Assembly: GCA_029932855.1 (NCBI GenBank)
Contig: JAOZPG010000006.1
Span: 62,001 to 126,000 of the forward strand
Length of the DNA: 64,000 nucleotides
From: Bacteroidales bacterium
GTDB lineage: Bacteria; Bacteroidota; Bacteroidia; Bacteroidales; VadinHA17
Direction of reading: 5' to 3'
Of the stretch, positions 59,640 through 64,000 are shown piece after piece. The stretch's first letter is position 1. Each line of letters opens with the position of its first letter. The notes beneath the pieces are model-generated. The model made no database searches. It had not been told where the DNA came from and was given only the letters and a program-made list of their open reading frames with translations. The position numbers and the translations under genes were made by a program.

Positions 59640-60305
59640 ATGAAAATTCTAATTGTTTCCGCAACGAAAAAGGAGATACAGCCATTTATAGATCAGGTAC
59701 AGGCTTTTTCCGGTGAATCACAGTCAGACCTTTCTTTTGATTATAAAGCTCATAATATTGAGATCCTTATTTCAGGCATTGGAGCTGCGGCCAGCTCTTA
59801 TTCACTTACTAAAAAGCTCTTAAGCACAAAGTTCGACCTTGTTATAAATGCCGGTATTGCCGGCAGTTACGATCATGATGTAGAACCGGGTCGTGTTTTT
59901 ATGGTAACAAGCGAGGTCTTCTCCGACCTGGGCGCAGAAACGGACGGGGTTTTTCAGTCGGTTTTTGATCTGGGTCTTGTTAAGCAGCATCAGTCGCCCT
60001 TTGAATGGGGGATACTTAATGCCAGGCCCTTTTACAATCTCCCCGGTGTACTTGATCATCTTCCCCGGGCCAAAGGATATACTGTAAATAAGCTGCCCGG
60101 CCGCAGGCAGGTGTCAGGACTTGAAAGTATGGAGGGAGCGGCAGTTTTTTATGTTTGCCTGCTTGAGGAGATAGCTTTTGTGCAGCTAAGGGCAGTCTCA
60201 AACAGGGTTGGGGAGGCAGACAGGTCGAAATGGGATATCCCCATGGCTCTTAAAAGTCTGGCAACTGAGCTTATCAGGCTCTTAGACGATCTTCAGGAAA
60301 CATAA
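59640..60305 (+). CDS. mqnB: Futalosine hydrolase
   Basis: 221 residues. Splits futalosine into dehypoxanthinyl futalosine and hypoxanthine in the futalosine menaquinone pathway. It is a nucleosidase-fold protein: ILISGIGAAASSYSLTKKLL, LVINAGIAGSYDHDVEPGRVFMV, and the specific C-terminal motif SGLESMEGAAVFYVCLLEEIAFVQLRAVSNRVGEADRSKWDIPMAL. The last part fits MqnB rather than MTA/SAH nucleosidase. It implies a futalosine route; the UbiD-family gene at 8.6 kb may act later in the same pathway. Confidence 0.92.
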   Translation: MKILIVSATKKEIQPFIDQVQAFSGESQSDLSFDYKAHNIEILISGIGAAASSYSLTKKLLSTKFDLVINAGIAGSYDHDVEPGRVFMVTSEVFSDLGAETDGVFQSVFDLGLVKQHQSPFEWGILNARPFYNLPGVLDHLPRAKGYTVNKLPGRRQVSGLESMEGAAVFYVCLLEEIAFVQLRAVSNRVGEADRSKWDIPMALKSLATELIRLLDDLQET

Positions 60306-60416: not shown

Positions 60417-63400
60417 ATGACTGATTTTTTCAGATCGGATAAGGATATTGCCAGCTTACTGGCCGAAAAGACTCAAAATCTCAGGGAGCTGGCATGTATC
60501 AACGGGATAAATGCCATAATAAGCCTGGGCAAGGGAATTGATGTCAGCCTTCAAAAGCTGGTTGAGAAGATACCCGAATCCATGGCCGAGCCGGAAAAAT
60601 TCGGAGCAAGCATAAAATACCTTCATAAAGAGTACAAGAGCGGAAATTTTGAAGCTTCGGAATATTCGATATCCAAAAGCTTCAGTACCATTGATGACAG
60701 CACCGGGCTTGTAAGCATATATAATTTGTCGGACCCTCTGAAGCAAAAGGCCTTCGGGCACGAAGAGAAGCGTTTCCTGTCAAGCCTGGCGAGTCTTATT
60801 ACCGAGTATCTGAACTCATACAGGGCAAGAGAGGTGTTCAGGCCCGATGAAGAGATAATAAAGGAAGGTGGCAGCAGGAAGCTTACTACCCAGCAGCTTC
60901 TGCAAAAATTCCTTGACAGGCATAACTCTGAAAGGAACCTCTTTCATGAGCTAATGCCCTTCAAGGTTAAGGAGGTGCTTCTTATTGCCAATCTTTATGA
61001 TGCATATATCATTGAAGGAGAGGGAAGGTTCTCGGATCATATTCTTGGAGAATATCACCAGATGAATCTTACCGTTATGCCCAGGGTTACAGGAGTATCT
61101 TCCGGGCAGGAAGCCCTAAAAAGGCTTTCAAGAAAGCATTTCGATATAATTATCATTATGGTGGGCGTAGATAAACAGACACCGGTTAATATCTCTGCGA
61201 GGATAAGCAAAGACTACCCATATATACCTACTTACCTGCTTACCAATAATAACAGTGATATTGCAGGGCTGAGGGAAACACAGAAGTCCGGGCAGCTGCC
61301 GCCCAACTTATTTGTGTGGAACGGGGACTCAAAAGTATTCTTTGCCATGCTGAAGCTCCTGGAAGACATGGTAAATGTAGGCAATGATACCAGGCTGGGG
61401 GTAACCAGAGTAATACTGCTGGTTGAGGACGATCCCATATATTATTCAAAATACCTGTCAATACTGTATTCCCTGGTACTGGAGCAAACCAGGGAGCTCA
61501 TAGAGGATGTGAGCAAAGATGATCTTTATAAGGTTTTGAAATTAAGGGCCAGGCCAAAGATCCTTCTTGCAAAGACCTACGAAGAGGCATTGGATATTAT
61601 TAAGAACCTGGGCGACTTCCTCTTATGTGTGATCTCTGATATAAGGTTTCCCCGCAATGGGAAGCCTTCAAAGACGGCCGGTTTCGAGCTTATTAAATAT
61701 GTAAGATCTATACACGACAACCTCCCGTTGGTCTTACAATCATCAGATTCTGCAAACGAGCAAAGGGCAAACGAGCTTGGCATACATTTTATCAATAAAA
61801 ATTCAGAGACCCTGTTGCAGGACCTGAGATCATACATTAAGATACACCTGGGCTTTGGTCATTTTATATACAGGAACAAGCAGGGCAAGAAGATAGCTGT
61901 TGCCAGGTCGATGGAAGAATTTGAAGAATACCTGAGTACCATTCCCGATGAATCATTTGGTTATCATGCTGTGAAGAACCAGTTCTCTATGTGGCTTATG
62001 GCACGGGGCGAGTCTGAGATAGCCAGGCTTTTGTATCCCCTGAATATAAAAGACTTTAAAAGCATATCCGAGTTAAGGGAAGTTATTATAGAGATACTCA
62101 GGCAGAGGTCACGCGAGGCCGACAAAGGGAAGGTGCTCAAGTTCAATGAGTCAGCCATACTTGATGAAAGTAATATTGTCAGTATGGCTTCAGGCTCACT
62201 GGGAGGCAAGGGCAGGGGCCTGGCCTTTGTGAATACACTGATCTATACTTTTAACTTCTCAAGGCTTATAGATAATATTCATATAAGAACGCCCAGGACA
62301 GTGATCATCGGTACGGATGAGTTTGATATATTCATGAATGATAATGATCTGTATGATTTGTTGCAGGAGGAAAAAGATTATTCTGTCATACAGAAGTATT
62401 TTTTAAGGGCAAAGCTCAGCAAGAGTCTGCTCGGGAAGCTCAGGATATTCCTTAAGCTGATAAAGCGGCCTGTTGCCGTTCGCTCTTCCAGCCTGCTGGA
62501 AGACTCCATCAACCAGCCTTTTTCAGGCATATTCAATACATTTCTCCTTCCCAATAACAGTCCCAGCTTCAATACCAGGCTAAGGCATGTATCAAATGCC
62601 ATTAAAATGGTATATGCCTCAATCTATTCCGATCATGCCCGGGGCTATTTCGAGGCAGTTAGTTTCAATGCCGAGGATGAAAAGATGGCCATAGTCCTCC
62701 AGGAAGTGGTAGGTCGGCAGCACGGAAGTTATTTTTATCCTCATATAAGCGGTACGGCGCAGTCGCACAATTACTATCCTTATGCCCACATGAAGCCCGA
62801 TGAAGGATTTGCACTTGCAGCACTGGGACTGGGACATTATGTTGTGGGAGGAGGAAAGGCCTACAGGTTTTCGCCCACCTATCCGCTTCTTGATATAAAT
62901 ACAGCTCAATACCTGCTTAAGAATTCGCAGACATGGTTCTATGCTATTGATATGGAAAATGAGAAGCTCAATTTCAGGAAGGGCGATATAGCAGGATTGA
63001 AAAAGCTGGAGCTGGCAGAAGCAGAGAAGCATGGTACGCTGAAGCACCTTGCCTCGGTTTATATTGCCAATGACGACCGTATTGAGCCTGGCACAGATAA
63101 GGCAGGTCCCCGGCTGCTTAACTTTGCAAATATTCTAAAGTATGATTATGCCCCACTTGCAAAGACCATTAACATACTTCTTGATGTTGTCAAGGAGGCC
63201 TTTGGCTCGCCTGTTGAGATAGAGTATGCAGTTGACCTTACAAGAGACAGTGAGGGAAAAGTATCCTTCTACCTATTGCAGGTTAAGCCTCTGATAGGTG
63301 CCGAGGCCAACTTTACGATCAATATGAAGAGCATAGATCATGACAAGGTGATCCTGTATGCCGAAAAGAGCATGGGTAACGGCAAGGTGAATGATGTAAG

Positions 63401-63854
63401 TGATGTTATTTATGTTAAACCCGGAAAGTTCGACAAGACCAGGACGGAGCAGATGGCTGCAGAGATAGAACAGCTGAATTCAGAAATGATAAGGGAGAAG
63501 AAAAAGTACGTGCTTATTGCACCGGGTAGGTGGGGTACCCGCGACAGGTTCATAGGCATCCCCGTAGCATGGCCCCAGATATGTAATGCCAGGGCTATTG
63601 TTGAGATGAGCCTTGAAGGATTTCCTCTCGACGCATCCCTCGGATCGCATTTCTTTCATAATGTAACCACCATGAATGTCGGTTATTTCTCGGTCGATCA
63701 TGCCTCGCCGGCAGATTATATTAAATGGGAAGTGCTTGAGAAACAGGAAGTGCTTGGAGAGACAAATTTTTTTAAGCATATCAGATTTAAAAAGGGATTA
63801 GAAATACTTATGGATGGTAAGAAAAGAACCTCACTGATAAGGATGAAGACATGA
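60417..63854 (+). CDS. Fusion protein: GAF-like region, two receiver modules and a PEP-synthase-type ATP-grasp domain
   Basis: 1145 residues. Order: N-terminal GAF-like segment (~15-140). A degenerate receiver (~183-320; KEVLLIANLYDAYIIEGEGR and FDIIIIMVGVDK, with Met248 where the phospho-Asp should be). A complete receiver (~330-480; ILLVEDDP acidic pocket, Asp408 in CVISDIRFP, Ser442/443 in VLQSSDS, Lys461 in FINKNS) with an insert after the first helix. An ATP-grasp domain like PPDK/PEP synthase (~590-1000; SGSLGGKGRGL, PVAVRSSSLLEDSINQPFSGIF with Arg689, and FYLLQVKPL). A C-terminal domain with VLIAPGRWGTRDRFIGIPVAWPQI and LDASLGSHFFHN. No swivelling phosphohistidine (TSH) domain is visible. 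Cytoplasmic. The next gene overlaps its stop and is related. Confidence 0.85.
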   Translation: MTDFFRSDKDIASLLAEKTQNLRELACINGINAIISLGKGIDVSLQKLVEKIPESMAEPEKFGASIKYLHKEYKSGNFEASEYSISKSFSTIDDSTGLVSIYNLSDPLKQKAFGHEEKRFLSSLASLITEYLNSYRAREVFRPDEEIIKEGGSRKLTTQQLLQKFLDRHNSERNLFHELMPFKVKEVLLIANLYDAYIIEGEGRFSDHILGEYHQMNLTVMPRVTGVSSGQEALKRLSRKHFDIIIIMVGVDKQTPVNISARISKDYPYIPTYLLTNNNSDIAGLRETQKSGQLPPNLFVWNGDSKVFFAMLKLLEDMVNVGNDTRLGVTRVILLVEDDPIYYSKYLSILYSLVLEQTRELIEDVSKDDLYKVLKLRARPKILLAKTYEEALDIIKNLGDFLLCVISDIRFPRNGKPSKTAGFELIKYVRSIHDNLPLVLQSSDSANEQRANELGIHFINKNSETLLQDLRSYIKIHLGFGHFIYRNKQGKKIAVARSMEEFEEYLSTIPDESFGYHAVKNQFSMWLMARGESEIARLLYPLNIKDFKSISELREVIIEILRQRSREADKGKVLKFNESAILDESNIVSMASGSLGGKGRGLAFVNTLIYTFNFSRLIDNIHIRTPRTVIIGTDEFDIFMNDNDLYDLLQEEKDYSVIQKYFLRAKLSKSLLGKLRIFLKLIKRPVAVRSSSLLEDSINQPFSGIFNTFLLPNNSPSFNTRLRHVSNAIKMVYASIYSDHARGYFEAVSFNAEDEKMAIVLQEVVGRQHGSYFYPHISGTAQSHNYYPYAHMKPDEGFALAALGLGHYVVGGGKAYRFSPTYPLLDINTAQYLLKNSQTWFYAIDMENEKLNFRKGDIAGLKKLELAEAEKHGTLKHLASVYIANDDRIEPGTDKAGPRLLNFANILKYDYAPLAKTINILLDVVKEAFGSPVEIEYAVDLTRDSEGKVSFYLLQVKPLIGAEANFTINMKSIDHDKVILYAEKSMGNGKVNDVSDVIYVKPGKFDKTRTEQMAAEIEQLNSEMIREKKKYVLIAPGRWGTRDRFIGIPVAWPQICNARAIVEMSLEGFPLDASLGSHFFHNVTTMNVGYFSVDHASPADYIKWEVLEKQEVLGETNFFKHIRFKKGLEILMDGKKRTSLIRMKT

Positions 63855-64000
63855 AAAATAATTTCTTTGAAGCCCAGAAATACGATTTTGGAGACACCTC
63901 CTTCAGTCTCCTTCTGCAAAACAGGATACATAAGGTGCTGCTTGTTTGCAGTAATTATGATGCATTTATGCTTGAAGAGGACGGAAGGATAGATGAACAG
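63851..64000 (+). CDS. Related receiver/PEP-synthase-like gene, 5' part (runs off the right edge)
   Basis: Partial: ATG at 63851 overlaps the TGA of the previous gene (ATGA), and 50 codons are visible to the window end. RIHKVLLVCSNYDAFMLEEDGRIDE aligns with KEVLLIANLYDAYIIEGEGRFSD of the preceding protein, where the degenerate receiver module starts. It lacks the preceding ~180 residues and so begins close to that module. This indicates a tandem pair, translationally coupled; the rest of its domains cannot be seen. Confidence 0.8.
   Translation, partial: MKNNFFEAQKYDFGDTSFSLLLQNRIHKVLLVCSNYDAFMLEEDGRIDEQ

Follow-up and report, generated by a model that had tools for sequence, protein, structure and literature searches.

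Near the end of a 64,000-nucleotide stretch of DNA from a Bacteroidales bacterium of the VadinHA17 lineage (assembly GCA_029932855.1, contig JAOZPG010000006.1, positions 62,001 to 126,000; the window), an open reading frame encodes P0001, a protein in which two receivers precede an ATP-grasp domain of the type found in PPDK and phosphoenolpyruvate (PEP) synthase. A C-terminal domain follows for which we detected no relatives. As the original prediction, made from the letters alone, had noticed, a related second gene starts in an ATGA overlap with the end of P0001; it too carries a receiver, PPDK_N and the C-terminal block. The features of this pair, and of two paralogues elsewhere in the genome, are listed in Table 1.

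Table 1. Features of P0001, its partner and their paralogues (plain positions are those of the window; prefixed positions use the labels of our own loci and contigs)
Feature	Position	Strand	Basis or remark
P0001, receiver/receiver/DUF5752-like/PPDK_N ATP-grasp/novel C-terminal domain protein, 1145 aa	60417..63854	+	ORF, Pfam, AF2
N-terminal region, residues 8-140, GAF-like	60438..60836	+	AF2 secondary structure, alignment
Receiver 1, residues about 183-305, degenerate, Met248 codon 61158-61160	60963..61331	+	Pfam, AF2, PleD fold match, column conservation
Receiver 2, residues about 330-478, complete phosphorylation site, Asp408 codon 61638-61640	61404..61850	+	Alignment, AF2, fold match, columns
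DUF5752-like helical linker, residues about 480-585	61854..62171	+	Pfam PF19027 above cut-off, columns
PPDK/PEP-synthase-type ATP-grasp domain, residues 590-962	62184..63302	+	Pfam PF01326, Foldseek, columns
C-terminal domain without detectable relatives, residues 964-1145, His1078 codon 63648-63650	63306..63851	+	Columns, AF2; no Pfam, PDB or BFVD match
Second gene, start, 990 aa	63851..64000; ends outside the window at G000:C15:128823 = L006:6824	+	ORF, Pfam
576-aa paralogue, ATP-grasp and C-terminal domain only	L007:5431-8465 (G000:C3, with GDH)		17 bp after 428-aa GDH
1061-aa paralogue, same core and C-terminal nucleotidyltransferase	L008:3566-6751 (G000:C2)		NTP_transf_2 (Pfam); weak MntA-antitoxin and ANT-like matches

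The ATP-grasp assignment holds: residues 594–961 match PPDK_N (PF01326, E 2.4e-37), and the best Foldseek matches are rifampin phosphotransferase (RPH; 5hv3, E 5e-12) and PPDK (1kbl, E 2e-6). Residues K598, R689, E936 and Q955 are invariant in 40 of 40 diverse relatives from many phyla, the set on which all column conservation and Pfam counts given here are based. From the motif context and established knowledge, we take these four residues to be the PPDK catalytic set. No Pfam family beyond those described here was matched in P0001 or its 990-aa partner, and hence no PEP/pyruvate barrel or rifampin-binding domain. No NCBIfam model reaches its cut-off, the top matches being partial ATP-grasp ones to PigC and PEP synthase. 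The full-length AlphaFold2 (AF2) model (pLDDT 83.8, pTM 0.67) has fold matches to RPH, PPDK and the tandem-receiver protein PleD.

The two receivers differ in the way that had been foreseen, one being degenerate and the other complete. At the phospho-Asp position of receiver 1 (Met248), the relatives have Met in 31 cases, Thr in three and Asp in none. Because of this pattern, the alignment identifies the degeneracy of receiver 1 as a conserved family trait, and the conserved Met suggests a fixed role that does not involve phosphorylation. Receiver 2 has the full response-regulator set of a phosphorylatable Asp (Asp408, in 38/40), an acidic pair (Glu337/Asp338), Ser/Thr (Ser442) and Lys (Lys461), whereas receiver 1 has no Asp. 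The Pfam match of P0001 to Response_reg is weak (E 1.1e-6, just below the gathering score); across the family, the domain is found in 38 of the 40 members. Between the receivers and the ATP-grasp domain, residues 513–579 match DUF5752 (PF19027) above the cut-off, as do 34 of the 40 relatives, and H517, N521 and W526 are highly conserved. The N-terminal region, with an element order of helix-helix-four strands-helix in the AF2 model, has no Pfam match at residues 8–140, and the label “GAF-like” reflects this order of secondary structure only; the region is missing from the second gene and from other shorter relatives. The original prediction had overlooked both the linker and the N-terminal region, as well as the paralogues and the genomic linkage described below.

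The C-terminal domain is the one part of P0001 that is unnamed in the libraries we searched, the remaining parts being of known kinds. The conserved block seen by eye proved to be family-wide, with GRWG and GxHFF invariant in 40/40; the full set of invariant residues is G1037, R1038, W1039, G1040, D1043, E1063, G1076, H1078, F1079, F1080 and Y1090. The invariant R/D/E/H set suggests that the domain is catalytic. Modelled in isolation, it is predicted with high scores (pLDDT 92.7, pTM 0.90), and yet it has no Pfam match at E up to 10, no relative in the PDB by sequence profile search, and no Foldseek match at E ≤ 0.001 in the PDB (best E 0.0097, TM 0.26) or in BFVD. We saw no case of the domain standing alone: its 46 matches, in 25 of 148 genomes, are all in open frames of 576–1077 aa, lengths that fit proteins of this family.

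P0001 has no recognizable swivelling phosphohistidine domain, an absence that had been predicted. The corresponding family, PF00391 (PEP-utilisers, with the motif G-G-x-[TS]-[SC]-H), is found in neither P0001 nor its partner, and in none of the 40 members at E ≤ 0.5 among the matches listed. A conventional swivel partner acting in trans, in the manner of HpeHI, was considered but is not evident: in this genome, which is 96% complete, PF00391 occurs once, inside a separate, intact PPDK. Since that PPDK is the single PF00391 protein, the genome also appears to be without PTS enzyme I.

The family is kept at 35–59% identity between phyla, which rules out chance. Relatives turned up in 49 of the 297 Bacteroidota genomes covered by a protein search, and a scan with one genome per species found at least 578. 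The cross-phylum loci discussed here are the best 80 of these, from a single scan of genome contigs. They come from Bacteroidota, Spirochaetota, Acidobacteriota, Riflebacteria, Cloacimonadota, Desulfobacterota, Krumholzibacteriota, Gemmatimonadota, Neomarinimicrobiota, Planctomycetota, Myxococcota and Bdellovibrionota, and from the Asgard archaea and Thermoplasmatota.

What do these loci have in common? Within 1.5 kb of the family gene, 23 of 29 loci from the 297 Bacteroidota genomes have a gene for glutamate dehydrogenase (GDH), as against none of 30 control loci of PF00391 genes, whose flanks were shorter (median locus 3.2 kb vs 5.9 kb). GDH is also present in 34 of the 80 cross-phylum loci, and in 26 it is a direct neighbour (< 700 bp), in tandem downstream (12), divergent (6), convergent (5) or in tandem upstream (3). 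The hosts include Bacteroidota, Spirochaetota, Desulfobacterota, Planctomycetota, Gemmatimonadota, Cloacimonadota, Asgard archaea and Thermoplasmatota. The family is linked to two types of GDH, between which lies a very long branch. A second partner is KorB, of 2-oxoglutarate:ferredoxin oxidoreductase (Kor), which adjoins the family gene or is close to it in 14 of the 80 loci and is convergent with the window pair at a distance of 17 bp. In three loci (L040, L042 and L045), the order is kor-F-F-gdh, where F is a family gene; those in L042 and L045 are relatives of the window pair. GDH and Kor were named by our recognizing their sequences and are presumed to be such. Both enzymes use 2-oxoglutarate. 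Because the orientation varies, the two GDH types are unrelated and many phyla are involved, these data argue for an association between the family and GDH that has been selected repeatedly, rather than one inherited gene order.

Together, these observations make it very probable that the family functions at the GDH/2-oxoglutarate node. We propose that P0001 and its partner are signal-controlled, ATP-consuming regulators of the 2-oxoglutarate/glutamate node, acting on GDH and, in this lineage, on KorAB; we put the probability of this at about 0.65. Catalysis is favoured because neither the ATP-grasp residues K598, R689, E936 and Q955 nor, in the C-terminal domain, the R, W, D, E and H vary among the 40 sequences, which span many phyla. 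The gene order points to GDH or Kor as the most probable acceptor or binding partner. That the family proteins modify GDH or Kor covalently is a possibility that we rate a little below even odds. In such a scheme, a sensor kinase would phosphorylate Asp408 of receiver 2, while receiver 1, as a conserved pseudo-receiver, would provide a docking or dimer surface. The signal would travel via the DUF5752-like linker into the ATP-grasp domain, so that phosphorylation of receiver 2 gates the reaction. The ATP-grasp domain would bind ATP and, with the GRWG/GSHFF domain, transfer a phosphoryl (or other ATP-derived) group to an acceptor. This acceptor would be met through the C-terminal domain and would most likely be the neighbouring dehydrogenase itself. 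The original prediction, of receivers combined with a PPDK-type ATP-grasp domain and an acceptor that is not known, stands as far as it went, and neither of the two outcomes that it had named as refuting it, a phosphohistidine domain in either protein or an ordinary PEP synthase split between the pair, was observed; what it lacked was a biological target.

Several points weigh against this proposal. Gene adjacency is a sign of shared function or regulation, not of direct modification, and the window pair itself adjoins korBA, not GDH. In over half of the 80 loci, the stored flank contains no GDH, although some contigs are short; the control loci had the shorter flanks, and most family loci come from metagenome bins. 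No dedicated histidine kinase was identified. Lastly, what is directly seen is domain content, intact active-site residues, family-wide conservation and gene linkage, and it is from these that we infer catalysis, the acceptor, the sign of control and the partner or input kinase.

The genome carries four genes with the family core: the two of the window and paralogues of 576 and 1061 aa. The 576-aa paralogue, judged by its sequence, is the minimal form of the family, without receivers or any signalling domain. The nucleotidyltransferase domain is confined to the 1061-aa paralogue, with none matched by Pfam in P0001 or its partner. The receiver/ATP-grasp fusion is one of at least three types of paralogue built on one core. 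In other Bacteroidota (L161, L163, L164 and L165), the order gdh428-short-NTase forms an operon, where NTase is the nucleotidyltransferase form, and in L160 the NTase, short and long forms are all on one strand with gdh444 and gdh428. These operons (L160-L165) usually adjoin a gene of ~280 aa, and several also adjoin histidine biosynthesis genes. The ~280-aa product begins CFFVSDLHG and is, by eye, presumably metallophosphoesterase-like; in the window's genome, the NTase paralogue is likewise followed by a small gene of this sort (L008:6755-7615). Four other relatives, of 1400–1571 aa (L052, L054, L055 and L057), have long N-terminal extensions and a small gene nearby that resembles a LuxR-type response regulator. 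The extensions of L054 and L055, the two that were scanned, match no Pfam family.

In a quick tree with SH-aLRT support only, the short form and the NTase form each make a single group, whereas the partners of the window pair are split between two deep clades of the long form, both of which include members linked to GDH. Because the partners are in separate deep clades, the pair probably represents an old division of labour and not a recent tandem duplication. Taking the paralogues and their operons into account, we tentatively suggest a wider, unrecognized system that spans phyla and reversibly and covalently controls GDH and 2-oxoglutarate oxidoreductase. It would consist of receiver-gated ATP-grasp modifiers with a catalytic GRWG/GSHFF domain of new fold, accompanied by receiver-less and nucleotidyltransferase paralogues in the same operons. 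We consider this broader proposal less likely than not.

An alternative explanation is that the family phosphorylates or ligates a metabolite near glutamate, 2-oxoglutarate or ammonia, its gene being co-expressed with that of GDH as a pathway partner rather than as a regulator. To our knowledge, all characterized relatives of the ATP-grasp domain act on small molecules. They include the fold matches, RPH and PPDK, and the phenolic dikinases HpeHI (PMC12167813). The lack of any signalling domain in the 576-aa paralogue also speaks for such an enzyme. However, receivers in 38 of 40 members would be unusual in a plain metabolic enzyme, and the usual second-substrate domain, either a PEP/pyruvate barrel or a rifampin-binding domain, is unmatched. 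Moreover, we know of no step adjacent to GDH that needs an AMP-forming kinase. We regard this explanation as unlikely.

Less probable still is a non-catalytic adenylate sensor, in which the ATP-grasp domain would bind ATP or AMP but do no chemistry, with the protein serving as an allosteric subunit of GDH or Kor, switched by receiver phosphorylation. In its favour, the search for a carrier histidine domain came up empty, which leaves no standard dikinase route, and some regulators of GDH in other bacteria, the FHA proteins, work through binding. Nonetheless, the invariance over many phyla of all the ATP-grasp catalytic positions, and of R1038, D1043, E1063 and H1078, exceeds what binding needs.

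We think it similarly improbable that the C-terminal block is a phosphohistidine swivel diverged beyond recognition, which would make P0001 a protein- or metabolite-directed dikinase with His1078 as carrier. His1078 is invariant and starts a helix (1078–1085) in the AF2 model; the order of elements (strand, helix, strand AIV, His at the helix start, strand) resembles that around the catalytic His of PEP synthase, as does the W..I...A.AIV spacing. A hand alignment to PEP synthase along these lines (WPQICNARAIVE / WEPIMKKASAIIT, followed by G-x-H at the helix start) was dropped as unproven. Against a swivel stand the absence of PF00391 from the members and the PDB sequence profile search; among the top 50 fold matches in the PDB for the C-terminal model, which is a confident one, there is no PPDK, PEP synthase or RPH and no swivel-domain protein. 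When the C-terminal alignment (101 sequences used) was compared by hhalign with 21 genuine swivel domains, in local as well as global mode, the scores were no better than those obtained with decoys that were shuffled, reversed or unrelated.

That the pair is just a PEP synthase, either divided between two genes or decayed, has almost no chance of being correct: the PPDK_N domain is present, and public databases presumably annotate such genes as PEP synthase, but both partners carry the entire receiver-ATP-grasp-C-terminal core with neither a swivel nor a PEP barrel, their active-site residues are invariant, they belong to two separate deep clades, and the genome has its own intact PPDK.

The gene upstream of the pair (59640-60305) is, by eye, presumably a nucleosidase of the futalosine hydrolase type, and a gene ~5 kb beyond the second gene (L006:11951-12793) presumably MqnD-like; on this naming, menaquinone genes seem to flank the kor/receiver cluster. 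Further on, a large protein that runs off the contig end (L006:15167-17761) is RHS/YD-repeat-like, again presumably and by eye.

GDH links carbon and nitrogen metabolism in nearly all cells, and how it is switched in many anaerobes is unclear. In Bacteroides fragilis, GDH was reportedly found long ago to be reversibly inactivated in vivo, with no enzyme assigned. A widespread family whose genes are physically linked to those of GDH, and whose members combine a kinase-like ATP domain and a phosphorylation switch with an invariant domain not described before, supplies candidate genes for such switching. It is also a warning that family genes carrying a PEP synthase annotation may have another identity. 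A search for literature on the family, on DUF5752, or on receiver and PEP-synthase-like proteins with GDH returned nothing specific, which is weak evidence of novelty since subscription journals were mostly outside its coverage.

How does P0001 compare with known systems? GarA/OdhI-type FHA proteins and the nucleotidyltransferases GlnE/GlnD are known regulators of GDH and of nitrogen enzymes. They would serve the same node, and the 1061-aa paralogue has NTP_transf_2, but P0001 itself has no matched FHA domain, no nucleotidyltransferase and an unrelated architecture. With RPH, PEP synthase and PPDK, P0001 shares a PPDK_N-type ATP-grasp domain with its catalytic residues, and RPH and PPDK are its best fold matches; it differs in having tandem receivers in front, another C-terminal domain, no detectable swivelling phosphohistidine domain and no match to a PEP/pyruvate barrel. 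The two-component phenolic dikinases HpeHI, CreHI and PpsAB are alike in that the ATP-grasp polypeptide itself has no swivel domain, and the His-bearing partner of HpeI is a second, dedicated protein, HpeH (PMC12167813). In contrast, the only PF00391 protein in the genome of P0001 is PPDK, and the ATP-grasp domain carries an additional, fused C-terminal domain. DVU0246/0247, from Desulfovibrio nitrate resistance, pairs a PEP-synthase-like gene with a response regulator (PMC4001038); we considered it but set it aside as a different architecture, since it is annotated with a mobile domain and its receiver is a separate protein. PleD-type response regulators also have two receivers in a row, one of them degenerate, and give fold matches to P0001, but the output of P0001 is an ATP-grasp enzyme in place of a diguanylate cyclase or DNA-binding domain.

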